From the NCBI GenBank assembly GCA_018831195.1, contig JAHJDP010000053.1, forward strand, positions 1 to 51,838: DNA of 51,838 nucleotides. Reading direction: 5' to 3'. The translations under genes were made by a program, and so were the position numbers. The DNA is from Candidatus Eisenbacteria bacterium (GTDB taxonomy: Bacteria > Eisenbacteria > RBG-16-71-46 > CAIMUX01 > JAHJDP01). This document shows, in pieces, positions 10,585-35,771 of this stretch; the first letter of the stretch is position 1, and every line of letters starts with the position of its first letter. Below the pieces are notes generated by a model. The model made no database searches, was not told the origin of the DNA, and worked only from the letters and a program-made list of their open reading frames with translations.

Positions 10585-11433
10585 ATGATGCGAAAAGGCT
10601 TGGGATGGAAAGAGGTTAATTCGACGCGTTGGTTCCTTCATTTGGTTGGACTGTTTTTATTCCTATTCTCGATGAGTGGCTGTGGAACGGATAATCCGGT
10701 TGCGACGGAAGAGACCAGGACCCAAACGACCCAACTGGATGAAGCTTTATTCGATGCCAATCCGCAGCTGGATATCCAGGGTCAGACAGACCACCCGGTT
10801 AATCGGTGGAGCCATCTCGCGGACACGTTGGGACTCTCTGAAGAGCAGGTCTTGGAATTGCAGGCCGCATTGAAGGAATTGGCCACGGCGTTGCGAGAGT
10901 TGCGAGGACTGGTGCATGCGGGTGAAATGACGATGGAAGAGGCTATCGAGGCGGCTCAGCTTCTACGCCAGGACTTCGAATTGAGGTTGCAGGAAATCCT
11001 CACTCCGGAACAATATGAGCTTCTTTTAACACTTCGCCCAAACCTCCCGGGTCCGCACTATCCTGGCCGGCGAGGTCCCAATGGGGGACGTTCCAGCGCA
11101 TCGCAATTCCAAGGAACCCTCCCATTGACGGAAGATGATGAAGTGTTGGTCCAGGTCGCCCCTCAGACGTTTATACTCAACACCACTCAGAGCGGCGAGA
11201 TAACGGTTCATGCCGAGGTTCCATACTCTGCCGTCGACACCTCTTCGATCACATTGAACGGTATTCCCGTGACCTGGACAAAAGCGGATAATCGTGGGGA
11301 GTTGGTTGCCAAGTTTGATGAATCCTTAGTGGAGGCGATACTGGAGGTTCCCAGCACTCTGCTCACTTTGACTGGTAACCGGCTGGATGGAACGACATTC
11401 TCCGGTTCCGATGAAGTACAAGTAAGACCCTGA
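10585..11433 (+). CDS. Lipoprotein with LTxxQ (Spy/CpxP-like) motifs
   Basis: A 282-residue lipoprotein. The signal peptide ends in a lipobox (FSMSGC, Cys33), so the mature protein is lipid-anchored. Residues 80-150 are alpha-helical with two LTxxQ-like motifs, LSEEQ at 84-88 and LTPEQ at 139-143. These are the hallmark of Spy/CpxP periplasmic stress and metal-responsive proteins. After a Gly/Pro/Arg linker (about 152-170) comes a beta-rich C-terminal domain of about 105 residues (FILNTTQSGEITVHAEV). The fusion of a CpxP-like helical region to a beta domain is unusual. It stands alone, ending at a bidirectional terminator. Chaperone-like function is suggested only by the motifs. Confidence 0.7.
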   Translation: MMRKGLGWKEVNSTRWFLHLVGLFLFLFSMSGCGTDNPVATEETRTQTTQLDEALFDANPQLDIQGQTDHPVNRWSHLADTLGLSEEQVLELQAALKELATALRELRGLVHAGEMTMEEAIEAAQLLRQDFELRLQEILTPEQYELLLTLRPNLPGPHYPGRRGPNGGRSSASQFQGTLPLTEDDEVLVQVAPQTFILNTTQSGEITVHAEVPYSAVDTSSITLNGIPVTWTKADNRGELVAKFDESLVEAILEVPSTLLTLTGNRLDGTTFSGSDEVQVRP

Positions 11434-11440
11434 TCTTCCT

Positions 11441-11488
11441 AGAAAAGACCCGGCAGAAGGCCTCATTTCAGATTCTGCCGGGTTTTCT
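11441..11488. terminator. Bidirectional rho-independent terminator
   Basis: CCCGGCAGAA at 11449-11458 pairs perfectly with TTCTGCCGGG at 11473-11482. AAAA at 11443-11446 and TTTT at 11483-11486 flank the stem, giving a U-tract in both directions. It lies exactly between the convergent lipoprotein gene and the kinase pseudogene. Confidence 0.85.
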
Positions 11489-11489
11489 C

Positions 11490-13916
11490 TTATGCGGCTC
11501 TCGCCTCAAAGATCTGCCGGATGGTATTGGAAAGCACTTCTCTCGACACCGGTTTGAAGAGATACCCCTTGATGCCCATGGAGTCAGCCATATCCTCTGA
11601 GATCGCCTTGCTATAACCTGAGCAAAGAATAACCGGCAACCCCGGGCGGATCTCCAGAACCGCCTTGGCCAGATCAGAACCGACTAATCCGGGCATTGTC
11701 TGATCGGTCACAAGAATATCATACTCATCTGGATCCTTCCGAAAGGCCTCCAAGGCTAAGCGGCTGTCCTCAAAAACTGTGACATCATAACCCGATTTTT
11801 CCAAGGATATCTTTGCCAGATCAAGGATAGACCTTTCAGCATCCACAAAGAGGATTCGTTTTCTCCCCGCATCATAGATCGGTCTTGAACTTTCTTCGCT
11901 ATCAGATTCGACATGCCCGCCATGGATCGGTATAAAGACATCAAACTGGGTTCCCCTTCCAACCTTGCTATCGACAAGTTCAATGTCCAACTCCCCCGGC
12001 CATCCTCCATGGCCTGAAAGGAGCTTGTCACAAGATTCATTATGATTTGATGGATGCTGTCCGAATCAGCCAAGACAGAACCGACAGTCGGATCAATTCT
12101 TGACTTTAGATTTATTGTAGAAGGGAGCGAACCCTTAGAAATTGAATAACCTCATCAAGAATGGGAGCGATCATGATGGGCTTCCGCTCCCTCTCCTTTT
12201 GCCGGCTGAAAGCCAGAATTTGGCTCACAAAGCCCTTGGCCCTCATCGTCGCTTTGAAGATCTGAACGAGCGCACCTGAGCAGGAAGCCTTCTTTTCATT
12301 CATCTCCTTTGCCAGCTCCGTGAAACCAAGAATAATGTGAAGCAGATTATTGAAATCATGAGCAATGCCTCCGGCCAGCTTTCCAAGGGCTTCCATTTTT
12401 TGAGATTGCAATTGTTGAGTTTGAAGTATTTTATGTTGCGTAATATTTTTCAGAACTAAAACAGCACCTATGACGTTTCCATCCTTGTCATACATCGGGC
12501 GCCCCGAGCTGAGAACGGTGAATCCCTCAGGCACCCGCGGATTTCGGATGAATTGCTCAACATTATCGGTGGACAGACCTGCCAAAGCTCTGGAGAGATT
12601 CAGATCCTCATTCGGAATTTTTGTCATTTTGTCGCGTTTGAATACACCATATTCATTGGACCAGTGACTTGAATGCATATATTCCGATCCGAGAATCTTT
12701 TCCGCCTCCCTGTTGGCATAGACGAGGGAACCATGGCTATTGGCCACCATGACAGCGTCACTCATGCTCTCCATAATTCCCCATAGGCGTTCCGCGCTCT
12801 CCAAAAGCACGGCCGCCACCCGCCGCTCCTCCGTCACATCCCGCCAAATGCTGATGATATAAAGGTGATCCCGAAGCGAAATGGTTTTGGCGCTAATCAT
12901 AGTATCGCAGATGCCGCCATCTTTCTTTTTCATTTTTGCCATAAATGACTCATGTCCGGCCTGCACTGATTCTTCAACAGGCCTTACCGTCTCTTCTGGA
13001 AATTCCATCGCATCGACATCCTGGAGCCCGAAACGAGAGAATTCTTCCCGGTTGTATCCAAGAATTTCAGGGGCACGGTCATTAAACTCATAAAAGTTTG
13101 TTGTTTCGCAATCGATGAGAACAACAGCATCGCCCGCTTGTTCAAAGACCCCGCGATATTTGGATTCCGACTCAAGCAGAGCCTTCTTGACTCGCTGTCG
13201 CTCCCCGATCTCAGTATTCAATTTGTCGATCGATATTGTTGTGTATTGTAGGTGTTGGGTCATCTTGTTAATGGACAGCGCTAATTCAGTTATCTCATCC
13301 TTCCCGGAGATGATGGCCTTTTGACTGAAATCGCCTCTCTACCGGTTCGTTTTACTTCCAAAAAGAGTTGATCCGCCTTAAATGCGGCGAACTCTCCAAT
13401 CTTCTCCATCCTCCCATCCAATGCAGCGAGGTGTTCGGCTTCCCGATCCATGGTAATTTTCCCTGCCGCACGGCTATCACCCTCTTCCATCAGGATGAAA
13501 ACCTCAGACCGGATTCCCTTCCAATCCCGAAAGGCGTCATTTGCCTCAATAATCTCACGTTTATCCCCCAAATATATTTTTGAAATCAGGTCAAACGACC
13601 GCTGATATTGTTTCTCTTTTAGATCGATTTGGGAGGCTAACGGCTTGATCTCGTCGGCGTCATCCGATAGGACAACATCCTTCATGGATCGATGCATCGT
13701 CGTTATATCTAATTTTATGTCCCTCACCGCATTCTCGACGACAAGAGGATGTTCATACATATCTCTGTTCAATCCAGTCAGTTTGTTCAACTTGACCAGA
13801 GTCGTGAGTCCAAAAATGAAGGTCAAAAAGATCACAATCCCAAAGCCAAGCGCCAGCCGAGTCTTTATAGAGACATTGGAGAGGATCATAAGACTTCCCT
13901 TTTCAACAATGATCAC
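11490..13916 (-). pseudogene. Decayed hybrid histidine kinase (4HB sensor, PAS, HisKA, receiver)
   Basis: The pieces, in order on the minus strand, once formed one hybrid sensor kinase. First is an N-terminal TM1 plus four-helix-bundle sensor (13916 to about 13345). Next come the second half of a HAMP (RGDFSQKAIISGKDEITELA), two PAS domains and a HisKA with GGIAHDFNNLL (to about 12117). Then follow only the N-box of the ATPase (SIHQIIMNLVTSSFQAMEDG), its last strand (ELDIELVDSKVGRGTQFDVF), and a C-terminal receiver (DILVTDQTMPG). Three breaks shift the frame: near 13335-13350, where TM2 and the first half of HAMP are missing; near 12117-12130; and near 11985-12005, where the G1 and G2 ATP-binding boxes are missing. 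The kinase cannot be functional. The receiver frame (11490-11990) remains open. Confidence 0.85.
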
Positions 13917-20369: not shown

Positions 20370-21692
20370 TCAACAGGGCGCCGGCGAGGCTTCATATCCG
20401 GCACTTTTAATGGCCGCCATCAAAACCTCATCTGAGAGAGCGTGGCCTTTGACAATGGCGCGGCCATCTTCAAGGGAGATGGAAACATCCGCCACACCCT
20501 CAATCGATCGTATCGCCCGCTCGACGCTGCTTGTGCAATGACCGCAGGACATCCCCTTAACATTGAAGCAAGCTGTTTCCATATCGGCTGTCTCCTTTTG
20601 CGCCAGGCCCCTTGAACCCCGGGCCTCTCTTCGATGTCTCAACTTGATCCCGAGGGCCCTCAAGACAAGAGCCCCGAGGAGCAGGGCCGTGCCCCACTCC
20701 CACCACTGAGCCTGCGAGAGAGCACCGGCCATCTCGAGATGCCCGCCATGGGAGGGATCCTGCTGAAGTGATACCGGCAGCCTCGCATGAGGGAAAAACT
20801 GCTGGAAAAGAAGACCGGAAAGGTAGCTCGTAACCACGATGGTTGTTAAGTAGACCGCGACGACCCGGCGGCCCAGCACTTTTATAAAAACACTCAATGT
20901 CGCGGCGTTGGTTGCCGGTCCGGCGATGAGAAAAACGATGGCTCCTCCAAGGGGAAGCCCCTTGAGTACCAGCGCGGCGGCGACGGGCAGAGAGCCGGTG
21001 GCGCAAACATAGAGGGGCACCGCGACGAGCAGCACCGCCAGCATCTGCAGGTACGGATTAGGGAAGGTGCGCGTTAGAAACTCATCCGGCATGAAGACCG
21101 AGATCGCCCCGCCGATAAGGGTTCCAAGAACCAGCCAACCGGCGATATCCTCCACCAGCATCCCCAAACCATAGGAAAGGGCCGACCGCCCCTTGGCCGA
21201 GAAAGAAGCCCTTGCAGGAGAGGCCTCCTCGATCACTGGAGCATCCCCGCTGATGGGGACATTTACCGCTCTGAGCGGTTCAAGCAGAGAGAGAACCGTG
21301 CCCCCGATGACACCCGACACAAAGGCCGTCAGGACCTTCCAGAGAGCGATGGGCAGCCCCAGGATGGCGTAGGAGGCCAGGAAGGAATCGATGCCGGTTT
21401 GAGGGGTCGAGATCAGAAAGGAGGTTATGGCCGGCCTTGAGGCCCCCCGCCTTTTCAAGAGATCGGCGAAGGGAATCACGCCGCAGGAACATAGGGGCAG
21501 CGGTGTTCCAATCAATGCGGCCTTAAGCGCCGCCCTGAATCCATGACCACCCAAATGCCGGACAATCCAATGTTGCGGGACCGCCACATGCAAGACGCCC
21601 GCCAGGAAAAAGCCCAACAAGAGATAGGGCGCCATGAGCAAAAACAGCTGCAGGGAACCAACGAGCCAACTCTGCAAATATGATAGTGCCAT
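20370..21692 (-). CDS. SO_0444-family metal permease fused to an HMA domain
   Basis: About 440 residues. The first 340 or so are a permease of the DUF318/SO_0444 Cu/Zn efflux family, with many membrane segments. They carry the conserved GTPLPLCSCGVIPFADLL loop (Cys-x-Cys, likely metal ligands) and SFLISTPQTGIDS. The last 70 residues are a heavy-metal-associated domain (FNVKGMSCGHCTSSVERAI, with its CxxC) that would hand metal to the permease. ATG 21692 starts directly at the first membrane helix; an upstream ATG at 21725 is less likely because the predicted transcript begins near it. It follows the CusA-like gene on the same strand and likely exports copper or zinc to complement the RND pump. 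Confidence 0.85.
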   Translation of the reverse strand: MALSYLQSWLVGSLQLFLLMAPYLLLGFFLAGVLHVAVPQHWIVRHLGGHGFRAALKAALIGTPLPLCSCGVIPFADLLKRRGASRPAITSFLISTPQTGIDSFLASYAILGLPIALWKVLTAFVSGVIGGTVLSLLEPLRAVNVPISGDAPVIEEASPARASFSAKGRSALSYGLGMLVEDIAGWLVLGTLIGGAISVFMPDEFLTRTFPNPYLQMLAVLLVAVPLYVCATGSLPVAAALVLKGLPLGGAIVFLIAGPATNAATLSVFIKVLGRRVVAVYLTTIVVTSYLSGLLFQQFFPHARLPVSLQQDPSHGGHLEMAGALSQAQWWEWGTALLLGALVLRALGIKLRHRREARGSRGLAQKETADMETACFNVKGMSCGHCTSSVERAIRSIEGVADVSISLEDGRAIVKGHALSDEVLMAAIKSAGYEASPAPC

Positions 21693-21737
21693 CTCACACA
21701 ATCCTCTAGGTTCATGATGCATCAACTAACGTAGCAC

Positions 21738-21766
21738 ATTATACGATTTTTTAGACATGTTCAAAA
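21738..21766 (-). promoter_or_regulatory. Possible separate promoter of the permease-HMA gene
   Basis: A perfect TATAAT (rc of 21738-21743) has TTTTGA 17 bases upstream (rc of 21761-21766, overlapping the CusA stop). The -35 match is weak, so this may only supplement readthrough from the efflux operon. Confidence 0.35.
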
Positions 21767-24700
21767 TGATGACGCCTTCATCCCCCGCTTGAACTGAATT
21801 TCCTTAACCATTGTATACAGGACCGGGACTACGAACATTGTTAGAATCTCGAATGACATTCCGCCAAAAGAAGGTATGGCCATCGGAACCATAACATCGG
21901 CGCCCCGGCCTGTCGCGCTCAACACCGGGATTAACGCTATGATAGTGGTGGCCGTGGTCATCAGACACGGCCGGACCCGGCGGCATCCGGCCAAGATCGC
22001 CATTTCCCGGATTTCTGAAATCGAGCTTGGCTTTTTCTCGGCAAAACTCTGATTCAAATAGGTGGCGATAACCACCCCGTCATCACTCGCAATTCCAAAG
22101 AGAGCCAGAAATCCGACCCAAACCGCGACGCTTAGGTTGACCGGGTGAACTTGAAATAGCTCGCGCATATTTACACCAAAAAAAGATATATCGATAAACC
22201 ATGGACGAGCGTACAACCAGAGCAGAATAAATCCCCCGGCCCAGGCTACTGCGATACCGGAGAATACCAGTGTGGTCGTAGAAATCGAGCGGAATTGGAG
22301 GTAGAGTATCATCACAATAAGAAAAAGCGACAGTGGAAGGACAATCATGAGCTTTTTCTCGGCCCGAACCTGGTTTTCATAACTTCCGGCAAAAGAATAA
22401 CTCACCCCGCTGGGTAGCTCCAATTCCCCCGTTGCAATCTTCTGATCGAGATAATCGCGGGCTTGTTCGACAACATTGACTTCGCCAAATCCGATTTTTC
22501 CATCAAATAGGACATATCCGATAAGAAAGGTATCCTCGCTTTTAATCATTTGCGGCCCACGAACATATTTAATATCGGCGAGCTGAGCCAACGGTATCGC
22601 CGCTCCATCCGGTGCGTCGATAAGAATCCTCTCCAGGCCTTCAATACTATCCCGCAGCTCGCGCATATAGCGAACACGCACACCGTAGCGCTCCCGCCCT
22701 TCTACAGTCGTCGTAATGGGCTTCCCGCCTATAGCGTATTCTATGACTTCTTGTACATTCTGAATCGTGACGCCGTATCTAGACGCCGCGGTTCTATCGA
22801 TCTCAATCTCAAGATAGGGTTTACCGACGATTCTGTCGGCAAAGACCTTCTCGGCCGCCACAGATGGAACCTCTTTTAGGAGGCGCTCAATATCGAGACC
22901 GGCCTGTTCAATCGATTCAAGATCGGGTCCCTTTACTTTCACGCCCATCGGCGCGCGCATGCCTGATTGCAACATGACGATTCTTGTCGAGATCGGTTGC
23001 AATTTCGGCGCAGAGGTTGATCCCGGCACCTGGGCGACATCAATAATGGCATCCCAAATGTCATCGGGTTTTTCAATTCCCTCCCATTCCCGTCGCCCCG
23101 GATTTAGCTCCGGATCGAGCGCAGGCCGCCACAGACGGAAGGGTCGTCCCCCCCGCTGCGGTATGAGATCGCCACTTTCATCGCGCTGGTAACGACCCTG
23201 GACCATATAGGGTTCACCATCCGGGGCGAGTAATAGATTTCCCGCAATATCCCTGACGAAATCTGTTTCCGCCGCGTTAAATCGGAAGGTTATCCGCCTT
23301 CCACTTTCATTGAGAATGTACTTCGGTCTGTAATTAATAACCGTCTCAATCATTGAGACCGGGGCCGGATCCAGAGAACTCTCAACGCGCCCGATCTTGC
23401 CGACAACCTCATCCACCTCCGGGACAGCCGCGATCGCCCTATCCTGTATCTGCAACATATCCAGAGCTTCAGTGATCCCGGCATGAGGCATGGTTGTCGG
23501 CATGTACAAATACGAGCCCTCATCCAAGGGCGGCATAAACTCTTTGCCCAATCCAGGAAAGAGATGCGCCACCTCAGAGACCGGTTTCCATGCCAGTATT
23601 GAGCGAGGTAACCATCCAAAGAGTGAGGGAACTCCAAGCCAAATCATGAGACCCAGACAGATCAAAAGGGCTGGACCGGTCAGAAAGAGCGCTTTGTGTC
23701 CGAGGCACCAGCGCAGAAGAGATGGATAGAAGTGAAGAAATACCCGAAAGAAACCCAGAATCCCGCCGATGAGCAGGCCGACAAAGACCAGGTTTTTAAT
23801 AAGTCCCTTTTCAGGGCCGAGCGGGACCCAATGTCTTGTCAACATGATGGTAATAACGAGGGCGGCCATTCCGATGATCATCCAGGATGATCTCCGTACG
23901 ATGGCCGCTGGAAACTTTGCTTGGAGTTTCGCCGATCCGGCATTCTTCTTCTTTCTGAAGAGAATATGGGCGATCGGTGGTATAAGCGTCAACGCGACAA
24001 TGACGGAAGCCAGAAGCGCAAATGTTTTTGTAAAAGCTAATGGCCGGAAGAGCTTTCCTTCGGCGGCAACCATTGTAAAGACCGGGAGAAAGCTTACAAC
24101 CGTCGTGGCAATAGCGGTAACTACTGCGCTTCCCACTTCGCTCGAGGCTCTGTAGATGATCTCGAGCCGATTTTCATTCGAATCGAATTCGCTGAGTCTT
24201 CTCAAAATATTCTCTGTAACGATGATTCCCATATCCACCATCGTCCCAATGGCGATGGCGATACCCGATAGTGCGACAACGTTTGCATCGACATGAAATG
24301 CCTTCATGGCAATGAAACAAATCAGAACAGCCAGTGGAAGCAAGCTGGAAATCAAAATGGAGCTGCGCAGGTGCATGACCATGAGCAATACGACAATCAG
24401 GGTCACCAATATTTCATGGATCAATGCTGAGTTGAGTGTTCCCAAGGTCTCGTAGATGAGACCTGAGCGATCATAAAATGGGATAATTTGCACCTGGGAC
24501 TGAGTGCCATCCGGTAGTGTCTTTTTGGGCAGCCCCGGCGCGATTTCACGGATTTTATTTTTTACATTTGTGATTGTCGCAAGAGGATTTTCACCATATC
24601 TTGCCACGACAACACCACCAACGGCCTCCGCCCCTTCTTTGTCGAGCGCTCCCCGGCGCAAAGCGGGGCCTAAAGTGACATGGGCCACGTTACGAATAGT

Positions 24701-25591
24701 GATGGGAACATTATCGTTTACTTTGATGACAGCGTTTTCGAGGTCCTCGATGTTTTTTACAAATCCGATGCCGCGGACGACATACTCAACGCGATTCACC
24801 TCTATTGTTCGTGCGCCGACATCCCTGTTGGACATCTTAACGGCTGCGACAACGTCCCCCAGTTTGACCCCGGCGGCGCGCATCGCGTCTGGATCCACAT
24901 CTATTTGATATTCTTTAACATGACCACCGATGGAAGCCACTTCGCTCACGCCGTCAACAGCAGTGAGGGCATAACGGACCAGCCAATCCTGGATGGACCG
25001 CAATTCGGCAAGATCCCATCCCCCTGTTGGATTCCCGGATTCATCTCGGCCCTCGAGGGTATACCAAAAGACCTGGCCGAGCGCGGTGGCATCGGGTCCC
25101 AGGCTCGGCTTCACTCCTTCCGGGAGCGTCCCCGCCGGGAGGCTGGCCAGCTTTTCAAGCACGCGGGACCGGGACCAGTAGAATTCCACATCATCATTGA
25201 AAATGATGTAGATGCTCGCAAAACCGAGCATGGAGTAACTTCGTATTGTTTTGACACCGGGGATCCCTAGAAGCGACACCGTCAAGGGATAGGTCACCTG
25301 ATCCTCGACATCTTGCGGTGAACTCCCCAACCACTCCGTAAAAACGATTTGTTGATTCTCTCCGATATCCGGAATCGCATCGACCGGCACCGGCTCCCGT
25401 GGCAGCCCTCCAAGATCCCAATCAAACGGAGCAACGATGAGCCCCCACCCGAAAACGAGAATCACAATCAGCAGAAGGATGAGCTTGTTTTCCAAGCAGA
25501 ATCTTATAAGACGATCAATGGGATTGGGCCTGCGAGGACTGCCTGTGGGATGATGAGTCAGAGCACTATTGGGCTTCATGATCATTTCCAT
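21761..25591 (-). CDS. cusA: CusA/CzcA-family heavy-metal RND pump, Cu/Ag type
   Basis: Inner-membrane proton-driven pump of a tripartite efflux complex. The TM4 signature AIGTMVDMGIIVTEN (Asp453, Glu460) resembles the HME4 (Cu+/Ag+) group and lacks the DFGLIVDG form of Zn/Co pumps. Porter-domain marks include EWLGSSPQDVEDQVTYPL, GKEFMPPLDEGSYLYMP and a Met-containing MLQSGMRAPMGVKVKG. The protein is 1276 residues, over 200 longer than E. coli CusA. Extra length lies in two added hydrophobic segments near residues 570-620 and an insert of about 50 residues before the MLQSGM motif. It overlaps the adaptor gene by 26 bases. Metal specificity is inferred from motifs. Confidence 0.9.
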   Translation of the reverse strand: MEMIMKPNSALTHHPTGSPRRPNPIDRLIRFCLENKLILLLIVILVFGWGLIVAPFDWDLGGLPREPVPVDAIPDIGENQQIVFTEWLGSSPQDVEDQVTYPLTVSLLGIPGVKTIRSYSMLGFASIYIIFNDDVEFYWSRSRVLEKLASLPAGTLPEGVKPSLGPDATALGQVFWYTLEGRDESGNPTGGWDLAELRSIQDWLVRYALTAVDGVSEVASIGGHVKEYQIDVDPDAMRAAGVKLGDVVAAVKMSNRDVGARTIEVNRVEYVVRGIGFVKNIEDLENAVIKVNDNVPITIRNVAHVTLGPALRRGALDKEGAEAVGGVVVARYGENPLATITNVKNKIREIAPGLPKKTLPDGTQSQVQIIPFYDRSGLIYETLGTLNSALIHEILVTLIVVLLMVMHLRSSILISSLLPLAVLICFIAMKAFHVDANVVALSGIAIAIGTMVDMGIIVTENILRRLSEFDSNENRLEIIYRASSEVGSAVVTAIATTVVSFLPVFTMVAAEGKLFRPLAFTKTFALLASVIVALTLIPPIAHILFRKKKNAGSAKLQAKFPAAIVRRSSWMIIGMAALVITIMLTRHWVPLGPEKGLIKNLVFVGLLIGGILGFFRVFLHFYPSLLRWCLGHKALFLTGPALLICLGLMIWLGVPSLFGWLPRSILAWKPVSEVAHLFPGLGKEFMPPLDEGSYLYMPTTMPHAGITEALDMLQIQDRAIAAVPEVDEVVGKIGRVESSLDPAPVSMIETVINYRPKYILNESGRRITFRFNAAETDFVRDIAGNLLLAPDGEPYMVQGRYQRDESGDLIPQRGGRPFRLWRPALDPELNPGRREWEGIEKPDDIWDAIIDVAQVPGSTSAPKLQPISTRIVMLQSGMRAPMGVKVKGPDLESIEQAGLDIERLLKEVPSVAAEKVFADRIVGKPYLEIEIDRTAASRYGVTIQNVQEVIEYAIGGKPITTTVEGRERYGVRVRYMRELRDSIEGLERILIDAPDGAAIPLAQLADIKYVRGPQMIKSEDTFLIGYVLFDGKIGFGEVNVVEQARDYLDQKIATGELELPSGVSYSFAGSYENQVRAEKKLMIVLPLSLFLIVMILYLQFRSISTTTLVFSGIAVAWAGGFILLWLYARPWFIDISFFGVNMRELFQVHPVNLSVAVWVGFLALFGIASDDGVVIATYLNQSFAEKKPSSISEIREMAILAGCRRVRPCLMTTATTIIALIPVLSATGRGADVMVPMAIPSFGGMSFEILTMFVVPVLYTMVKEIQFKRGMKASSF

Positions 25592-27527
25592 CCCGTTGCG
25601 AATGGCCCGCCCAAATCACTTCCTCTTCTGTCCCGCATTGGAACATGGCGCTTCCAAAATACGGATTCTCCGTTCCTTCCTTATTTTGAAGCCAATCGGC
25701 TCCACGCCCATCGAAAGCCATCGGACAATGGTAACGCAGAATCGGTTGGACCGTAGCGCTGCCAAAGCTATTGACAATCCAAGTGACCCATAAGGATAGA
25801 TACTCGAACTCCTGCCTGGCACTTTCAATACCACCCGTCTTGTGAATCCGCCCTATGACCTCGCCGATGGGCCCCATGGCATCATCCCATGCCGAACGCG
25901 CCCCCGGAGGAAGATTCTGAGTCCCGAATCTTTGCGCATTGCTCTTTGATGAAGCGCTCCTTTTTACACCGGCACGCGGAAGGACTTTTTGCATCTTTCC
26001 GGCGGCTTCACTCGCCATGGTGAGGTCGTCATGACTTAGGGCATTCTGAATCTCAAAGTAGATGTCATACAGCGCAGACAAATCCGTCTTAAAGGACTCC
26101 GGGATATTTGCAGGCTCAAGAGGCGCACCGGGACCCTGAAGGGTCTCTGCAGGCATCGGCTCCATCATGCTGGGCTGAGCCATAATTTGAGCCGCGCTGT
26201 CGATCTTGAAATTGCCGTTGACAACGACCATCTCACCTTCCTTAAGTCCATCTATCACAACATAGTCCTCCCCGGCTTTGGGTCCCAGGACCACCTGCCG
26301 GCCCGTATAGATCCCCTCTTCCCCAGGTTTTGCTACATAGACAATCGCTCTCTTGCCGGTTCGCAGAGGCGCTGCCGCCGGTATCAGGAGCGGATCTCCA
26401 TGATCCCACTCTCCATCCCGGCCTGGAATCTCCACCTGGACATTCGCGCCGATCCTCGCCTTTACAATCGCTTTGAGAAACATTTCCGGTTTGAGTCTGG
26501 CGGCGGGATTCTCAACATCGACCCGGACCTTGGCTGTTCTTGTTCGCGGATCTATCACCGGATCGATAAAAGCAATGATTCCCCCAAACACCTCCCCCGG
26601 ATAGGCCTCTGAATAAAACTCGATTTCTTGTCCCTCTCTCAACCAGGTCAGATCACTTTCATAGGCATCCAATCCCGCCCAAAGATGGGATAAGTCGGCG
26701 ATGGTATAGATGGGGGTTCCTATATTCACATAGTTCCCCTCAATCGCGGTTTTGTGAAGAACCACGCCGCTGATCGGCGATTTGATAGTAATCAGATCCG
26801 TGGATACTCCCGCCGTTTCAATCGCCTGAACCTGCTGATCCGTCAAGCCCCACAGCCGGAGTTTTTTTCTGACCGCCTCCACATTCGCCTGAAGGGTTCT
26901 ACCAAATGAGTCATCGCCGCTGGAAAGACCTCCATATCGGGCGGCATCCGCTCGTTTCATCTTCAGGGCCTGGAGTAATTCTTCCTGCGCTGTTAATAAT
27001 TCCGGGCTATACAAACTGACCAGAGGATCACCCGCTCGAACGGAGACACCGGTGTAATTGATGAAGAGGCGGTCAAGTCTCCCCGGAATCCAGGCACTGA
27101 TCGTCGTGATTCGAGTCTCGTCCAGCTCAAGCTTGCCCGACATCCTAATGTCCACCACTGCGGGGCGCGTTTCAGCCAAGGCTGTTGTAATGCCGGCAAG
27201 TTTCCGCGCATTCGCTGAAAGTGTTATTTGTGAGGTGGCGCCCTCGGCGGCCTCTCCAATGGCGACAAGGATGAGATCCATACCACAGAGCGGGCACGAT
27301 CCCGGTTCCGGCAATCGAATCTGTGGATGCATTGAACAGGTCCACATCTCGACTGCTGAACTCTGAGTTGCTTCACTGCCTGAATGATCCTGGTGATCCA
27401 TGGCCCTTGTGGGGGGCTGAGGATTCCCAATCCGCCCGATAAGATATCCAATACCCAGCGGCAGAAGGATCAGAAGGAGAATTACAAATCGACGTGTAAG
27501 AGGTCTCTGAAATATGTTCCTGATCAT
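25566..27527 (-). CDS. cusB: CusB-type periplasmic adaptor with HMBD and DUF3347-like domain
   Basis: Membrane-fusion protein linking the RND pump to the TolC-like channel. An N-terminal membrane anchor (RFVILLLILLPLGIGYLIG) is followed by a heavy-metal-binding domain near residues 55-80 (WTCSMHPQIRLPEPGSCPLCGMD). The usual lipoyl/hairpin/barrel region comes next (GRLDRLFINYTGVSVRAGDPLVSLYSPEL, FYSEAYPGEVFGG). The last 150 residues resemble DUF3347, a copper-associated domain (LYDIYFEIQNALSHDDL ... RYHCPMAFDGRGADW). Presence of both metal-binding modules in one chain points to Cu/Ag. ATG 27527 with GGAG eight bases upstream is preferred to 27548; it lies four bases after the TolC-like stop. 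Confidence 0.9.
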   Translation of the reverse strand: MIRNIFQRPLTRRFVILLLILLPLGIGYLIGRIGNPQPPTRAMDHQDHSGSEATQSSAVEMWTCSMHPQIRLPEPGSCPLCGMDLILVAIGEAAEGATSQITLSANARKLAGITTALAETRPAVVDIRMSGKLELDETRITTISAWIPGRLDRLFINYTGVSVRAGDPLVSLYSPELLTAQEELLQALKMKRADAARYGGLSSGDDSFGRTLQANVEAVRKKLRLWGLTDQQVQAIETAGVSTDLITIKSPISGVVLHKTAIEGNYVNIGTPIYTIADLSHLWAGLDAYESDLTWLREGQEIEFYSEAYPGEVFGGIIAFIDPVIDPRTRTAKVRVDVENPAARLKPEMFLKAIVKARIGANVQVEIPGRDGEWDHGDPLLIPAAAPLRTGKRAIVYVAKPGEEGIYTGRQVVLGPKAGEDYVVIDGLKEGEMVVVNGNFKIDSAAQIMAQPSMMEPMPAETLQGPGAPLEPANIPESFKTDLSALYDIYFEIQNALSHDDLTMASEAAGKMQKVLPRAGVKRSASSKSNAQRFGTQNLPPGARSAWDDAMGPIGEVIGRIHKTGGIESARQEFEYLSLWVTWIVNSFGSATVQPILRYHCPMAFDGRGADWLQNKEGTENPYFGSAMFQCGTEEEVIWAGHSQRDGNDHEAQ

Positions 27528-27531
27528 TGTT

Positions 27532-28851
27532 TCAGCTCCGTCTCTCATTTCCCATCAGCCATTCGACCCGCGCCAGACTCAGCCCCTTGTCGGTTTGAGC
27601 CCTCTCGAGCGCGAGGTTCATATCCAAAATTGTTCTCTGGGCTTCAATCACCTCCAGAAAGGCCGCTTCACCTGCAGAAAATGCATTTAACGTCACATCC
27701 TGTGATTGCTTTGCCATCGGGATCAGCCGGTACTGATAAAGATCAATTCGTCTCTCTGCATCTTTGACATCGCCGAGGGCCTCCTCCAACTCAGCCGACA
27801 AACGATTCTCGAGATCGGCGAATTCATATAAGGCTTCCTGCCGCCGCAACTTCGCACTTTCCTTTGCGGAATTATATTGGCCGAACCAGATGGGAAGATT
27901 GAGTGAGACGGTTAGAATGACAGGATCTTTCCCGCTATCGGTCAGGGAGCGATCCAATGCATCTTCCGTCATAATGACATTGATACCGATCGTGACATCA
28001 GGATAATGGCTCTTCCCCAAAAGCCGGCTTGACGCTTCTTCCCTCTGAGCCTTCAATTGAAGCGCCTGCAATGATGGATTTTCTTTCTGTATTCGCGCTA
28101 GGAGTTGATCGATGGACATTTGTAGAATTGTTGAAGAGGGCGTTTCATATCCCGGTAATTCGGCGTCAACGGGTCGGCCCAGGAGGGTGTTGAGGTGAGA
28201 TGCCGCATAGCGCCGGTCGTCCTTCAGACTCACCACGCGATCCTTGAGTTTTTCCAATTCTAACTGAATCGCCAAGGTGGATACCTGAGATTCTTGGCCG
28301 GTGGCGTATCGAGTCCGGGCGATACTTTCAAATTGCCGGATCCAATTTAGATTTTCCTCAGTAATGGCTATCGATTCGTCCAGATAATGGAGTTCATAAT
28401 AAGCCTCTGTTACAGAGTAAATGAGCTTCTGACAATCCATGTCATATTTTTTTTCCTCAACATGGGCGGTCAAACCAGCAACTTCCCCTCGAATCATAAG
28501 CTTCTGGAACCAGGGAATCGTCAAGGAAAGGCCGAAGTTCCGCTCTTGTGGGCCGACCCGTGTTTCGACCGGCTCCAAGTAATGACCGTAAGTCATCCGT
28601 GGATCGGGCAAAGCACGGGCCGCGCTGATCGCTTCCTTCGAGGATTTCCAACGGCTTTCCGAAGCCTGAAGACCAGGATTGTTGGCCATGGCGTACTCGA
28701 TGAGATCCTGGAGATTGGATGACTCCTTCAAATCATCGGGATTACCTAATTCATCCGCCCGAACATTGTCAGGAAGGACTACGGCCAATTGAGCCGCCAG
28801 GCAGAAAAGAGTCAAGGTGTGCACGATGCCGGTCTTTTTAATTCGATTCAT
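27532..28851 (-). CDS. cusC: TolC/CusC-family outer-membrane efflux channel
   Basis: A 439-residue outer-membrane factor with a signal peptide (VHTLTLFCLAAQLAVVLP). It has the two-repeat coiled-coil pattern of the OEP family, each repeat with a NP-x-hydrophobic-x-A start (AMANNPGLQASESRWKSSKEAI; IQKENPSLQALQLKAQREE) and a closing barrel strand. No lipobox is seen, unlike E. coli CusC. Its ATG overlaps the receiver gene by 14 bases, with AAGGA as ribosome binding site. With the adaptor and pump it completes the tripartite exporter. Confidence 0.85.
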   Translation of the reverse strand: MNRIKKTGIVHTLTLFCLAAQLAVVLPDNVRADELGNPDDLKESSNLQDLIEYAMANNPGLQASESRWKSSKEAISAARALPDPRMTYGHYLEPVETRVGPQERNFGLSLTIPWFQKLMIRGEVAGLTAHVEEKKYDMDCQKLIYSVTEAYYELHYLDESIAITEENLNWIRQFESIARTRYATGQESQVSTLAIQLELEKLKDRVVSLKDDRRYAASHLNTLLGRPVDAELPGYETPSSTILQMSIDQLLARIQKENPSLQALQLKAQREEASSRLLGKSHYPDVTIGINVIMTEDALDRSLTDSGKDPVILTVSLNLPIWFGQYNSAKESAKLRRQEALYEFADLENRLSAELEEALGDVKDAERRIDLYQYRLIPMAKQSQDVTLNAFSAGEAAFLEVIEAQRTILDMNLALERAQTDKGLSLARVEWLMGNERRS

Positions 28852-29224
28852 GGTTCCTTCGCCTTGCCCTTTCTTCTTGCGCCACTATATTGTATAATTC
28901 ATTCAGATCAATCGGTTTTGGGATAAAACCTGAAAGGTTCAATTCTTTGATCCGACGCTGGTCCAGCATTTCTGTATGACCGCTGATCATGATAATTGAA
29001 CATTTCTTTGTGAGATACGGCCTTACGCGTAACAATAATTCAATACCGTCGCAACCCGGCATAAGATAATCGATGATGAGGAGATCGGGTTGGAGGGTCA
29101 CACCAATAACTTGAGCCGCCGATTGAGGGCCGTCAAAACAGGTAATATGGCGCCCCTTTCCGCCCAAGACGATCGCCAAGCTTCTGAGGAGGGCCTTGTC
29201 ATTGTCTACAACCGCGATCTGCAT
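28838..29224 (-). CDS. Receiver-only response regulator
   Basis: A 128-residue stand-alone receiver domain: acidic pair in VVDNDKA (Asp7/Asp9), phospho-acceptor Asp52 in IIDYLMPGCDG, Thr/Ser switch in MISGHTE, and Lys in IPKPIDL. There is no DNA-binding or output domain. It is the first gene behind the sigma-54 promoter and overlaps the TolC-like gene, so it is made whenever the pump is made. It may act as a phosphate sink or feedback partner for the adjacent sensor kinase. AAGGGAG precedes the ATG by about eight bases. Confidence 0.85.
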   Translation of the reverse strand: MQIAVVDNDKALLRSLAIVLGGKGRHITCFDGPQSAAQVIGVTLQPDLLIIDYLMPGCDGIELLLRVRPYLTKKCSIIMISGHTEMLDQRRIKELNLSGFIPKPIDLNELYNIVAQEERARRRNHESN

Positions 29225-29267
29225 TCCCAGCTTCTCCCTTTAATACGGATTCATTGATTTGTATTAA

Positions 29268-29283
29268 AGCAGGAGAGATGCCA
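29268..29283 (-). promoter_or_regulatory. Sigma-54 (-24/-12) promoter of the efflux operon
   Basis: The minus strand reads TGGCATCTCTCCTGCT (rc of 29268-29283). GG and GC are separated by exactly 10 bases as sigma-54 requires, and TGGCA and TGC match the consensus TGGCAYRN4TTGCW. Transcription would begin near 29257, 33 bases before the receiver ATG. An NtrC-family activator gene lies immediately upstream. Confidence 0.75.
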
Positions 29284-29369
29284 CCCGCGTAGAGAAGTCG
29301 TAACCCATGATAAAGTATGCGATTACAGGCATTGTCGAAGAATATGAAGGGTGCTTTTCAGGGTTTAGA

Positions 29370-29407
29370 TACCAGTTTCTGACACGTCCGCCCGCCAGTT
29401 TCTGGCG
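29370..29407. promoter_or_regulatory. Paired dyad sites, likely enhancer for the NtrC-type activator
   Basis: CCAGTTTCTG occurs at 29372-29381 and again at 29396-29405. The second copy lies in a perfect palindrome, CGCCAGTTTCTGGCG (29393-29407); the first keeps CAGTTTCTG. Centres are 23 bases apart, about two helical turns, placing both on one face. They are about 90-140 bases upstream of the sigma-54 promoter, the usual position for an enhancer. Confidence 0.65.
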
Positions 29408-29440: not shown

Positions 29441-30814
29441 CTAGCGGGGCGGACGCCTTAATTCATTATCGGTAATTTTCTTTCTCAATGTGGTGGGTGA
29501 TATTTCCAGGAGCTTGGCGGTCCGGTTTATATTCCATTTGTTGACCTCTAAAGCCGAATGAATATATTCCTTCTCCATCTGTGAAAGTGGAATTATCTTG
29601 GCGGGAAAACTCATGGTCGCGTTTCTCGATCCCATGGTGGGGAATAAGAAGCTAAGGTGCTCCGCGGTAATAACTGGACCTGCTGTCAGCGCGATCGCGC
29701 GGGTAAGCACATTTTCTAATTCACGGATATTTCCCGGCCACTCGTATTGGCTCAATAGATTCAGAGCCTTCTCATCAATCGATTGAGCGGGTTTGTGGAT
29801 ACGCCGGGAGATTCTTGGGATGAAGTGATCCAATAGCAGAGGGATATCCCCCCGCCGTTCCCGAAGAGGCGGAACTCTGATTTTTGAGACAGCCAAACGG
29901 TAATAGAGATCTTCTCGGAACTCCTTTTCTTTGACCATCCTTTCAAGATCGCGGTTTGTCGCTGCAATAACACGCGCCTTAAAGGGAAGAGCTTCGAGCC
30001 CTCCAACCCGTTCGAACTCCCTTTCCTGAAGCACTCTGAGCAGCTTCGCTTGAAGTTCGAATGCCATGTCACCTATTTCATCGAGAAAAACCGTACCCTC
30101 TTGAGCATATTCAAATTTTCCGAGCTTGCGCTTCTCTGCACCGGTAAACGCTCCGCGTTCATGTCCGAATAACTCACTCTCGGGTAATGTGCTGACAATC
30201 GATGAACAATTGATGGCGACAAATGGCTTTCCCGGACTGGTCGCTTCATGGAGGGCTCTCGCGACTAATTCCTTTCCCGTCCCGCTCTCACCTTCAATAA
30301 GAATAGTGATCCGGCCCCGGGACGACAATCCGATCTCCTTCAGGAGATCAATGATTTTGGGGTCTTTTCCAACGATCTCACGTGACACCTCTTCCGGTTG
30401 AAGATCCATCTCGCCGAAAGGCATTCCGCCGGGTGCTTGCATCAATCCCGCATTTTTTAGACGGTTATATTTCTCAATCATCAGGAGAAATTCCTCCCGC
30501 CCTATTGGTTTGCGAATATAATCAAAGGCGCCAAGGCGCATCGCCTCAATCGTTGTAGACATCTCATGCGATCCTGTGATCATTACAATTGGTAACAGGG
30601 AATCCCTTTCCATCAGCTCTCGAAGAAGATCCAATCCATTACCATCAGGCAGGGAGAGATCCAAAAAGATGAGCTCGGGCGCCGACTTCTCGATCATTTT
30701 CAATCCATCGGAAAGATTATATGAAACCTCGGCAATATGACCTTCCGCCTCGATTTGAATCTGCAGCGACCGGCATAGGGCACGGTCATCATCGATAATC
30801 AGAATCCGGCTCAT
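29441..30814 (-). CDS. NtrC-family sigma-54-dependent response regulator
   Basis: A 457-residue activator with three domains. The receiver has Asp52 in FLDLSLPDG. The AAA+ domain has Walker A GESGTGKE, the sigma-54-contacting GAFTGA loop (HERGAFTGAEKRK), Walker B VFLDEIGDM and the arginine-finger region. The C-terminal Fis-type helix-turn-helix is NINRTAKLLEISPTTLRKKI. It overlaps the sensor kinase gene by four bases, forming a ZraSR/NtrBC-like pair. The sigma-54 promoter and paired dyads just downstream are its likely target, giving metal-induced expression of the efflux genes. Confidence 0.92.
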   Translation of the reverse strand: MSRILIIDDDRALCRSLQIQIEAEGHIAEVSYNLSDGLKMIEKSAPELIFLDLSLPDGNGLDLLRELMERDSLLPIVMITGSHEMSTTIEAMRLGAFDYIRKPIGREEFLLMIEKYNRLKNAGLMQAPGGMPFGEMDLQPEEVSREIVGKDPKIIDLLKEIGLSSRGRITILIEGESGTGKELVARALHEATSPGKPFVAINCSSIVSTLPESELFGHERGAFTGAEKRKLGKFEYAQEGTVFLDEIGDMAFELQAKLLRVLQEREFERVGGLEALPFKARVIAATNRDLERMVKEKEFREDLYYRLAVSKIRVPPLRERRGDIPLLLDHFIPRISRRIHKPAQSIDEKALNLLSQYEWPGNIRELENVLTRAIALTAGPVITAEHLSFLFPTMGSRNATMSFPAKIIPLSQMEKEYIHSALEVNKWNINRTAKLLEISPTTLRKKITDNELRRPPR

Positions 30815-32664
30815 TCCTCCGCCCCTCGCGGAAGTGAAAGAGAAAAGAGCGCCCCTCCCTTCCGCCGGTTTTCAGCAAATACGAACCCGCTGTGACCCTC
30901 CACTATCTTCTTTACATTCGCCAGCCCAAGACCCGTCCCTTCATCGCGTGTTGTATAGAACGGTTGGAATAGGCGATGGATGTCGGCGGTTCTAAATCCA
31001 GGTCCGTTATCAGCCACAGACAAACGGATGGTGCCTGGACTATGCACCGGATATTCGGCCGATAGAATAACTGATTCACCGGGAGGCGATGCCTGGATTG
31101 CATTGGCCGTTAGATTTGTAAGAGCCCGTCGCAGCTGTTCCGGATCGGCGCAAAAGGCCGTTCCCCCCGTCAAATCCTTGATAATGACCCGTATCTCCTT
31201 CTCTTCTGATTCCGATCGAAGAATATCTTTCACATTATTGGCTATTTCGATAAAGCGAAGGCGCGTTTTGTTCAACTCCAATGGTTTTCCATAATTCAAC
31301 AACTCTGACAGCATTCGCTCCAGCCTAAGGGCCTGTTCGGAGGCAATATCAGCAAGCTCTCTGTGAAACGGATCCTCCTCGACGTTGTGACGCAGAGCCT
31401 GAAGATTCATTTTTATTGAAGAGAGCGGATTCCTCATCTCATGCACAATGCTGGAGCTCAACTCACCAACGGCGGCCAATGATGCGGCCTGCAATAACCG
31501 CCGGTGACTCGCACTCAGCTCATCGATCATATGATTGAACGCCTCGGCGACTTCCTGCGCTTCGGCCCCGGCAAGGCGGCCGATACGCTCCTCTGATTGC
31601 CCGGCGGCAATACGGTGCGCCACGGCCGCGAACTCTCTCAAAGGTTGCGCTAAAACTCGCGCCCCATAATTCGCAATCACGAGAATCAAAACAAGGGTGA
31701 TCAAGCCGGTCATCAGAGCCCGGTTTCTAAAGACGCGGAGCCAGGCAAAAGCCTCCTGTTCATCTATCTCGATAACCAGTGTCCCATTAAGGCGAGGAAT
31801 CAAAGCGGAAACACCAAGGACTTTCTTGCCAGACGCGCTTCTGTAGCGCACAACCTCTCCACCACCGTCCGTAATTTGCTTTGGATAGGAATGGAACCGA
31901 TACTTATTATTTTCGGCATCGAATCCATCAATCATGGGGAAAACGCCACCTGGTAAAAACAGGAAGGCCTCGCCTGTCCTCCCCAAACCGGTTCCATGTT
32001 TCAGGATTGTATTCATCCTATTATCGATATCTATCTCAGCGGCAATGTATGCCAATCCACCGTGCCGCGGATTCAAAACCCGACTTCCCGCCTGCACCAT
32101 CACCGTTCCGTCTTCACGTTGAATCGGGGGTGTGGTCAGCAATCCATCCTGCGCGGCAAGCCTTTCCTTCAACAGTTTTGAAGGGAAGGCGCCTCCGGCA
32201 GGATCCGGCCTTTTAACAACACCGGAATCATCAGGGCGAATACTCCCTACTCGATTCCCGGTTCCCGCGGAACTGACCAATTGATTCCAGTTGACATCAA
32301 ATGTACTGATCGAGTGATAGAATGGAGTTCCTACATGAAGATCTGAAAGGAGATTGCACGTTTCGGCGCAGCAGGATGAATCCGCGGAAGCCGGAGTTGA
32401 ACCACATAAACCCTGAAGACATGGAGAGATCTGCAGAAAACCGAAATCGGATTCGATTTGTGCAAACCAGGATTCGATTTCAATCCGCCGAGCCTCCAGA
32501 ACCGATTGCATATGGACCTTCTGCGAGGCGATGATGGCTTGACGCGCGCAATGATAACCCTGCGCCGCCATAATGAAGAGAGGCCCCAGCGCCACCGGCA
32601 ACATCCAGAGCAGGATCCGCCATCTCATCGTCATGAGACGGATCATTTTTCTATTTTTTATCAT
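30811..32664 (-). CDS. Sensor histidine kinase with Cys-rich periplasmic Cache domain
   Basis: A 617-residue membrane kinase. TM1 spans about residues 16-36 and TM2 follows residue 310 (ALMTGLITLVLILVIANYG). The periplasmic part has a double-Cache fold (RVLNPRHGGLAYIAAEIDID). Near its start lies a cysteine cluster, Cys82, Cys87, Cys98, Cys99 and Cys103, unusual for a Cache domain and a candidate metal site. After a HAMP come HisKA (SIVHEMRNPLSSIK, phospho-His) and an ATPase with N-box NLTANAIQASP, G1 ADNGPGF and G2 GTGLGLANVKKI. It is paired with the sigma-54 activator and probably senses copper or silver. Confidence 0.9.
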   Translation of the reverse strand: MIKNRKMIRLMTMRWRILLWMLPVALGPLFIMAAQGYHCARQAIIASQKVHMQSVLEARRIEIESWFAQIESDFGFLQISPCLQGLCGSTPASADSSCCAETCNLLSDLHVGTPFYHSISTFDVNWNQLVSSAGTGNRVGSIRPDDSGVVKRPDPAGGAFPSKLLKERLAAQDGLLTTPPIQREDGTVMVQAGSRVLNPRHGGLAYIAAEIDIDNRMNTILKHGTGLGRTGEAFLFLPGGVFPMIDGFDAENNKYRFHSYPKQITDGGGEVVRYRSASGKKVLGVSALIPRLNGTLVIEIDEQEAFAWLRVFRNRALMTGLITLVLILVIANYGARVLAQPLREFAAVAHRIAAGQSEERIGRLAGAEAQEVAEAFNHMIDELSASHRRLLQAASLAAVGELSSSIVHEMRNPLSSIKMNLQALRHNVEEDPFHRELADIASEQALRLERMLSELLNYGKPLELNKTRLRFIEIANNVKDILRSESEEKEIRVIIKDLTGGTAFCADPEQLRRALTNLTANAIQASPPGESVILSAEYPVHSPGTIRLSVADNGPGFRTADIHRLFQPFYTTRDEGTGLGLANVKKIVEGHSGFVFAENRRKGGALFSLSLPRGAEE

Positions 32665-32884: not shown

Positions 32885-33841
32885 CTATTCCAACTTCTTC
32901 AGAGGGACGATTGAGAAAAGAACCCACCCGATCTGCGGCAATGATTGAAAGTGGGCGTAACACTCCCTCCCATCGCTCATTTTCACAATCATCCGGCCCT
33001 GTTTTTTTCTAAGCACAGAGGTCATAAAATCAGGTCTATCGAAATCGGAGCTCAGGCTGTCAATCGTCTTGTAAAGAATACTTCCCTTTTCTTTGTTTAT
33101 TTCAGCCACTATGGAATTGTGGCTAATGATATTTCCGCTGTCATCAACCAGCAAGATGTCTGAACCGGGAAACTGAACTTCGACCAGTGGCCTATCCTGT
33201 AGGAATTCAAGTGGAACGTCGATGCTCCACAGACCGAGAAAATTGTCTTTCTCGTAAACCGGTATTGATACGGAAAGAATGATTCCCTCTCCGGCATAGT
33301 CGACCGTTGGTGCGGTCCATCGGATGGCCCGGCCGGGGTTGTGTTTTGGGCTAACAGAAAGATAGGTGTGATATTGGGACCAATCAAAGTCCGGAGATAT
33401 GGCGGCGGCCAAATCAATATAGGGGTGTTGTATCGACGCATTGGTCACATCCTGATAATAAACCCAGGCAATACCCGGCAAAGTCTTACGCACCGCTGTG
33501 AGGATCGTCCCGAAATCCCTCAGCGCATACATCCGAAAACGGGTTTGGGGATCATTCTGGCCCTGTGGATTCCAGAAATAACTTATGCCGTCAGGATCGG
33601 CCTGTCCGTTCCGGTATTTTTCCAAGGCCGCGAGACTCTGAAAAAATCCGTCTGGGTCCTCGGCAAATGCTTCCTCTCGAAGCCACTGACTGATAGAGCG
33701 CCTGTCGTTTTTTGTGTCGCGGAAGCATCTCAGCGTTTTGTCTCGCAATTCCTCAAGAACATCGTAGATTTTAAGTATTCTAGAGGTGAGAGAGGCTGCA
33801 CTGCGTTCCAACTGGTATTCGAGTATTTCCAGTGCGTTCAA
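32885..33841 (-). CDS. Stand-alone Cache-type sensory domain protein
   Basis: A 318-residue protein consisting only of a double-Cache-like ligand-binding fold (FGTILTAVRKTLPGIAWVYYQDVT; ILSVSIPVYEKDNFLGLWSIDVPLEFL; SDILLVDDSGNIISHNS). It ends at IGWVLFSIVPLKKLE, where such sensors normally enter their second membrane helix. No TM segment, signal peptide or output domain is present. It begins at a TTG with AGGGGG upstream and has its own promoter. It may be a remnant of a larger receptor or a soluble ligand-binding partner of the kinase encoded next. Confidence 0.65.
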   Translation of the reverse strand: MNALEILEYQLERSAASLTSRILKIYDVLEELRDKTLRCFRDTKNDRRSISQWLREEAFAEDPDGFFQSLAALEKYRNGQADPDGISYFWNPQGQNDPQTRFRMYALRDFGTILTAVRKTLPGIAWVYYQDVTNASIQHPYIDLAAAISPDFDWSQYHTYLSVSPKHNPGRAIRWTAPTVDYAGEGIILSVSIPVYEKDNFLGLWSIDVPLEFLQDRPLVEVQFPGSDILLVDDSGNIISHNSIVAEINKEKGSILYKTIDSLSSDFDRPDFMTSVLRKKQGRMIVKMSDGRECYAHFQSLPQIGWVLFSIVPLKKLE

Positions 33842-34623: not shown

Positions 34624-34655
34624 CCGGCCGGCCCGAAACCGGCTTAGCCGGCCGG
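34624..34655. repeat. GC-rich hairpin over the sigma-factor stop codon
   Basis: CCGGCCGGC at 34624-34632 and GCCGGCCGG at 34647-34655 form a perfect 9-bp stem with a 14-base loop containing the stop codon (34644-34646). No T-tract follows on either strand, so it is not a classical terminator. It may stabilise or attenuate the transcript before apt. Confidence 0.5.
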
Positions 34656-35771
34656 TGGAGCGAATCTCTTCCGTGAAGCAACGTTCGGGACTGCTCTATC
34701 CAGCCTATGTTTGCCCATACAACCGGGTTGTGCAAGGACCCATCCGCGCAATTGCCTCAGCGCCCGCTTCTCCATCTGGCGGATGCCCTCGCGGCTCCGT
34801 CCCATGCGTCGCCCAATCTCTGCGAGTGATTGGGGATGTCCATCCAGAAATCCATAGCGCGCCCGCAGAATGATTTCCTCTGTGGGTGGCAGCGCCCGAA
34901 GCCAGCCATCCAGCTCCGCCTTCTGAAGATGCCCCTCCAAAACGACCTCGAGATTCTCAGGAGAGGGAAACCGGTTGATCACACTCTCCCCCTTCTCATC
35001 TCCGGAGATCGCCGTATCCAGGGAGATCGACCCTTCCCGTAATGCCTGCAGGCGGCGGACCTTGGCCGGGGTGATTCGAAGACCCCGCGCAAGTTCTTCT
35101 TCGCTGGGAAACCGCCCCAGTTCCTGCGTCAAGCGCCTTTCCGCCTCCAAAAGCCTGTAGAGACGGCGGAGGAAATCCATGGGAAACCGCACCGTGCGCC
35201 CCAGGTTGGCCACGGCTTGGGCAAAGGCCTGCCGGATCCACCAGGAACCGTAGGTACTGAACCGGAAGCCGCGTTCAGGATCAAAACGTTCGACAGCCTG
35301 GATCAGCCCAAGATTCCCCTCTTCGACAAGATCTTCGAAGGAGACGCCGCGTCCCATATAACGGCGCGCCAGGAAAACAACCAGGCGGAGATTCGACTTG
35401 ATCATCTCTTGTCTGGATGTGGTGCATCCTCTTCGGCTGGATCGCATGAGTTCCCTCTCTTGACTCGCCGAGAGGGGCGGATGCTTGGATAAGGCTCGAA
35501 GGTAAAGTTGAAACCCCGAGGGAAACGAATCCCTATTTTCGCCGACCAGGCAGGAATCGGATTCCTTTCGGGAACGGCGTCGCTCCCTTTGGGGTTCTAC
35601 AATAGGAATCTTCAGATCGCTAACCAACTGCAGAAACAGATCCAGCTCATCGGGATCGATCGAACGCTTTTCCAGGGTTTCCTCCAGGTCCGCAGCTTGG
35701 ATGCTGCCCTGGTCGAAACCCCTGCGCAGAAGTCCTCCCATCGCATTGGGTACTGAAAAACCCCCAGGCAT
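34644..35771 (-). CDS. Sigma-70 family (group 2-like) RNA polymerase sigma factor
   Basis: A 375-residue sigma factor. Region 1.2 is FQLYLRALSKHPPLSASQERELMR; region 2 has SNLRLVVFLARRYMGRGVSFEDLVEEGNLGLIQAVERFDPERGFRFSTYGSWWIRQA; regions 3 and 4 follow, ending in the helix-turn-helix SLAEIGRRMGRSREGIRQMEKRALRQLR. Region 2.4 reads NLGRTVRFP instead of the RpoD-type QARTIRIP, and there is no long region 1.1, so it is an alternative (RpoS-like group) factor. AGGAGGTGA seven bases before the ATG at 35771 is an ideal ribosome binding site, but it lies inside a hairpin. An internal ATG at codon 11 is an alternative start. Confidence 0.88.
   Translation of the reverse strand: MPGGFSVPNAMGGLLRRGFDQGSIQAADLEETLEKRSIDPDELDLFLQLVSDLKIPIVEPQRERRRSRKESDSCLVGENRDSFPSGFQLYLRALSKHPPLSASQERELMRSSRRGCTTSRQEMIKSNLRLVVFLARRYMGRGVSFEDLVEEGNLGLIQAVERFDPERGFRFSTYGSWWIRQAFAQAVANLGRTVRFPMDFLRRLYRLLEAERRLTQELGRFPSEEELARGLRITPAKVRRLQALREGSISLDTAISGDEKGESVINRFPSPENLEVVLEGHLQKAELDGWLRALPPTEEIILRARYGFLDGHPQSLAEIGRRMGRSREGIRQMEKRALRQLRGWVLAQPGCMGKHRLDRAVPNVASRKRFAPPAG

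Follow-up and report, generated by a model that had tools for sequence, protein, structure and literature searches.

A predicted sigma-54-dependent copper/silver efflux circuit with paired upstream dyads in a Candidatus Eisenbacteria genome

In E. coli the two-component system CusRS lies beside the RND copper/silver pump operon cusCFBA, and CusR is an OmpR-type regulator working with sigma-70. The E. coli system ZraSR, concerned with zinc and envelope stress, combines an NtrC-type regulator with a sigma-54 promoter and a metal-linked periplasmic protein as target; zra is autoregulated and is not known to include an RND pump. That copper genes can be controlled by an NtrC-type regulator linked to sigma-54 has already been shown for CorSR of Myxococcus xanthus, with lacZ fusions and the deletion of corSR as evidence of the copper response (PMC3707914). 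The products of the M. xanthus curA operon include a multicopper oxidase and a P-type ATPase but no RND pump, the regulator genes are located inside the operon, and in the available part of the account the activator-binding site is left unnamed (PMC3707914). Neither NtrC nor sigma-54 is mentioned in a survey on copper signalling among marine bacteria (PMC10141476), and no sigma-54-controlled Cus operon was found in the open-licence literature searched.

The locus described here is similar to CorSR/curA in the architecture described for that system, with a membrane kinase, an NtrC-type sigma-54-dependent regulator and predicted sigma-54 promoters (PMC3707914), but its predicted targets are cusCBA and the gene of a secreted HMBD protein, and it has a defined paired dyad. 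With CusRS-cusCFBA it shares a two-component system beside an RND Cu/Ag pump in which the methionine triad is kept, but the regulator has NtrC-type and not OmpR-type domains, and the promoter is of the -24/-12 type with dyads upstream. ZraSR is similar in regulator type, promoter and kind of target, and ZraR is among the solved matches, but the proteins here fall far below the ZraS and ZraR cut-offs (149/479 and 327/760 bits). Furthermore, a dyad was looked for ahead of the kinase gene itself and none was found, so that, unlike in zra, there is no sign of autoregulation. The general kind, copper control by NtrC and sigma-54, is already known and what is new is the combination of parts. Judged from the sequence, we find it quite likely that the locus forms a copper/silver circuit (periplasmic metal stress) dependent on sigma-54, in which one regulator serves both the cus operon and an unlinked HMBD gene.

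The window, the whole stretch of 51,838 nucleotides that was analysed, is contig C53 of a 5.24-Mb genome that is 99% complete. The genes for the kinase and the NtrC-type regulator, the spacer and the genes of the cus operon are all found on the minus strand:

30811..32664, minus strand: sensor histidine kinase (HAMP, HisKA and HATPase_c)
29441..30814, minus strand: NtrC-type response regulator (Pfam Response_reg, Sigma54_activat, HTH_8)
29393..29407, minus strand: upstream dyad CGCCAGAAACTGGCG, a perfect 6+3+6 centred near -143
29370..29384, minus strand: downstream dyad TGTCAGAAACTGGTA, centre about -120
29268..29283, minus strand: sigma-54 promoter TGGCATCTCTCCTGCT, GG-N10-GC, predicted start near 29257
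29238..29269, no strand assigned: inverted repeat without mismatch across the predicted start, CTTTAATAC-N14-GTATTAAAG
28838..29224, minus strand: receiver-only response regulator, operon gene 1 (Pfam Response_reg 2.5e-17)
27532..28851, minus strand: CusC-like outer-membrane channel (Pfam OEP 1.2e-48)
25566..27548, minus strand: CusB-like adaptor with an N-terminal HMBD metal-binding motif and a C-terminal DUF3347 (HlyD_D23, HMBD, DUF3347)
21761..25591, minus strand: CusA-like RND permease, 1276 aa (TIGR00914 over cut-off; best solved match CusA)
20370..21725, minus strand: SO_0444-family Cu/Zn efflux permease with a C-terminal HMA (NF033936 over cut-off; HMA)

The kinase and NtrC-type regulator genes overlap by 4 nt, a 216-bp spacer separates the ntrC gene from the receiver-only gene, and the receiver-only gene, cusC, cusB and cusA overlap by 14, 17 and 26 nt, in that order. 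The gene order receiver/CusC/CusB/CusA given in the first-pass annotation is correct, and the SO_0444-family exporter gene, which starts 35 nt past cusA, is probably the last member of the operon. Just upstream of the kinase gene, 32885-33841 encodes a protein with partial dCache similarity and no NCBIfam match, and at 34644-35771 there is a gene for an RpoS/RpoD-like sigma-70 family factor, which scores under the equivalog cut-offs.

The operon holds a complete set of RND permease, adaptor and outer-membrane channel. Met697, Met747 and Met873 of the permease align with Met573, Met623 and Met672 of E. coli CusA, which we take to be the Cu(I)/Ag(I) triad, and the three-methionine site is conserved. 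The pump is predicted to be of the CusCBA type, for Cu(I)/Ag(I) efflux. Of the CusA relatives on plasmids, the nearest that were checked, in Pontibacter and Bernardetia, are set among copper genes. The receiver-only protein encoded by the first gene may serve as a phosphate sink or in feedback.

A GG-N10-GC promoter had been proposed upstream of the cus genes, and TGGCATCTCTCCTGCT (29283-29268, minus) turned out to be an exact match to the -24/-12 pattern TGGCAY-N5-YTGCW, the only exact one within the window. It stops 43 nt short of the first operon gene. With C-12 at 29269 the predicted start leaves a leader of 33 nt, in which a Shine-Dalgarno-like GGGAG is found ahead of the ATG at 29224. 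When the 216-bp spacer was shuffled 2000 times with its dinucleotides kept, the promoter pattern never appeared. The genome-wide work on sites was done by pattern searches, and TGGCAY-N5-YTGCW occurs 29 times in the genome as compared to 8 times for the reversed control; roughly half of these 29 sites fall outside ORFs and have a gene start a short way downstream, which implies that the genome uses such sigma-54 promoters. The genome does carry rpoN, a gene whose lack had been named as a ground for rejecting sigma-54 control. The sigma-54 weight matrix was an approximation of the published consensus, and its scores serve for ranking only. A strong score upstream of the cusC match in genome G003 (L044) was located in the part coding for a signal peptide and was discarded.

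Activator sites in a sigma-54/NtrC-type circuit are expected 80-160 bp upstream, and the two dyads, at about -143 and -120, are candidate sites that recur ahead of another gene and in another genome. Their cores, CCAGAAACTGG (29395-29405) and TCAGAAACTGG (29372-29382), have 10 identical nt and are 23 bp apart, the distance that the first-pass annotation had noted, and its interval 29268-29407 correctly spans promoter and dyads. A dyad pair of such kind was seen in only one of 2000 shuffles of the spacer. It is very probable, from their position and recurrence, that the dyads are the operator of the adjacent NtrC-type regulator.

The whole genome was searched for the dyad CGCCAG-N3-CTGGCG with one mismatch allowed, a pattern that was not tuned to the site discussed here. 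About 40 places were found, and the portion inspected yielded tandem dyads at C84:98693, CGCCAGTTTCTGGGG at about -152 and GGCCAGAATCTGGCA at about -131, which are 21 bp apart. They are followed by a sigma-54 promoter, TGGCACCTCTTTTGCC, a 43-nt leader and a gene whose product is secreted and carries an HMBD heavy-metal-binding motif. A search for the dyad before other metal genes had been suggested as a check, and it was thus positive, both at this gene and in a genome of the same order. When dyad and promoter were combined into one pattern, dyad-N91..121-promoter, only two sites were found in the genome, none for the control and none in 15 Mb of simulated sequence; the gap range was fixed after the C84 site was already known, so the count of two is only descriptive. 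In the class outside this genome the composite pattern is near background. The other exact GCCAGAAACTGG, at C99:94300, is within an ORF and was taken as chance. The HMBD protein had no match in plasmids or viral contigs.

In the same-order genome, G004, the best relative of the kinase has 36-37% identity and an NtrC-type gene next to it, which ends at the contig end, leaving the DNA-binding helix outside the comparison. The region upstream of this pair has tandem dyads at a distance of 22 bp from each other, CGCTAGAAACTGGCG and CTCCAGGATGTGGCG, and CGCTAGAAACTGGCG is identical to the window dyad at 14 of 15 positions, a likeness reached in one of 3000 shuffles. A sigma-54-like promoter, TGGCAGGATCCTTGCC, stands ahead of a divergent HMBD gene, the product of which is orthologous to the HMBD protein of the window genome (49% identity). 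The cus operon of G004 is on a different contig, with a sigma-54 promoter, TGGCATGGCCCATGCA, just ahead of cusC and a predicted start a few nucleotides ahead of the ATG; its dyad, CGCCAGATCCTGGTG, is single and weaker, at about -106, and 54 of 3000 shuffles were equally good. The two genomes thus differ in which dyad-bearing target stands beside the kinase-NtrC pair, and this links the dyad to the regulator of the pair. That the dyad follows the pair from genome to genome is the strongest evidence at hand, short of experiments, for the site of the regulator. The promoter, the dyads and the gene content can be read directly from the DNA, as can the return of the site ahead of another metal gene and in the relative.

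Cus operons from the same taxonomic class were also seen in L051 (about 10980-11520, minus) and L040 (about 2880-3010), after TGGCACGAAAGTTGTT or TGGCACAAAGCTTGTT. The dyads upstream of them differ, being of the TTGTACAA type or GAATATT-N4-AATATTC, and in L051 a kinase-NtrC pair is also nearby. These are possibly the same design with another operator.

The domains of the two proteins encoded immediately upstream confirm an NtrC-family activator and its kinase. The regulator has the full NtrC domain set, a receiver, a sigma-54 AAA+ domain and a Fis-type HTH, and the GAFTGA and Walker motifs are present in its translation. The nearest NCBIfam family of the kinase is AtoS/ZraS, far under cut-off. 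Its periplasmic region shows a weak dCache similarity (dCache_1 E=0.018; 7.7e-11 in a relative) and a cluster of five cysteines within 22 residues, C82, C87, C98, C99 and C103, which suggests a putative thiolate metal-binding site. The complete cluster is absent in all three nearest kinase relatives. An AlphaFold model of the sensor, made with four sequences, had a mean pLDDT of 45.6 and was set aside. A search for the kinase in plasmids gave no match, and a scan of 84,980 genomes gave two good relatives in Hydrogenedentota, beside which no recognisable metal-efflux genes were found; metal sensing is thus not general to the kinase family. The nearest relative of the NtrC-type regulator, with 52% identity, is also from Hydrogenedentota (L057 13326-13450), and is followed by TGGCACGTAAGTTGCC, with a dyad CCGCGAA-CGC-TTCGCGG ~100 bp upstream of it and genes for small secreted proteins downstream.

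It is conceivable, though unlikely, that the promoter and dyads are a real sigma-54 regulon site and that the kinase responds not to copper or silver but to some other signal, from the envelope or of a redox kind, with efflux as one of the outputs. The sensor is dCache-like, and dCache domains often bind small molecules; the Hydrogenedentota relatives adjoin non-metal genes, and in one relative system the sigma-54 promoter stands before small secreted protein genes. However, the two dyad targets here and the two of G004 are all metal-handling genes, and the full cysteine cluster is found only in the kinase of the window.

The genome has 31 strong matches to the NtrC-type ATPase (Sigma54_activat), as compared to 4 OmpR-type DNA-binding domains over cut-off, and another kinase gene is located beside the C84 dyad site. 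One of these about 31 NtrC-type regulators could thus bind the dyads, the adjacent one having another target, but the same dyad adjoins a related kinase-NtrC pair in two genomes while the adjacent target differs, and we regard this as quite improbable.

The perfect inverted repeat CTTTAATAC-N14-GTATTAAAG is 32 bp long and covers about -12 to +20. A comparable repeat was seen in 16 of 2000 shuffles, and the genome has no second exact copy. It would form no RNA hairpin in this transcript, since its first arm is upstream of +1, and it may be a second operator. Its position would also fit an operon driven mainly by a sigma-70 promoter, with the repeat as the operator of another regulator. This seems very improbable, as the listed sigma-70-like matches include none within the spacer for the minus strand, and the sigma-54 match is exact and recurs together with the dyads.

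A nine-base inverted repeat, CGTCCGCCC/GGGCGGACG (29385-29393 and 29447-29455), links the end of ntrC to the gap between the dyads and encloses the upstream dyad, with a fold z of -3.5. It is highly improbable that the dyads for this reason belong to a hairpin, of RNA or DNA, at the ntrC 3' end and are not protein sites, since the hairpin is not followed by a T tract and the same tandem dyads recur ahead of the HMBD gene, similarly spaced and similarly far from a sigma-54 promoter.

In the circuit that we prefer, sigma-54-dependent and serving copper/silver efflux, the membrane kinase would sense excess periplasmic metal, perhaps via the cysteine cluster, and phosphorylate the NtrC-type regulator. 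The active regulator would bind the paired CCAG-N3-CTGG dyads, 21-23 bp apart and about 120-150 bp upstream of the start, loop to the sigma-54 polymerase at the -24/-12 promoter and open it by ATP hydrolysis, and the outcome would be induction of REC-cusCBA-SO_0444. The same regulator would also control at least one unlinked gene, that of the secreted HMBD-type metal-binding protein. The overall reading of the first-pass annotation, sigma-54 control of a Cu/Ag efflux operon, is supported, with the metal specificity and the transcript start as predictions.

The arrangement had also been called unusual, and this holds in part. A full-length CusR-type regulator was found in none of 19 sampled CusA stretches, an absence that is weak because several of the stretches stop at contig ends, and an NtrC-type pair is near CusA in 4 of them (L038, L039, L048 and L051). 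On the other hand, NtrC-type regulators are common in this genome and there is a precedent in Myxococcus.

Since the site also stands ahead of the gene of a secreted metal-binding protein, here and in the relative, a small copper/silver regulon is credible. With about even confidence, we propose an undescribed sigma-54 Cu/Ag regulon that combines a dCache-like kinase with an added Cys cluster, a paired CCAG-N3-CTGG operator, a receiver-only first gene with a possible role in feedback or as phosphate sink, and a secreted HMBD protein as second target. This would give a metal regulon of an uncultured lineage a defined operator, promoter and regulator and two targets. A Cus-type pump would here be wired to sigma-54, and not to a CusR-type regulator, in an NtrC-rich genome, which suggests that the toolkit of the lineage has more influence than the pump on which regulator is used.
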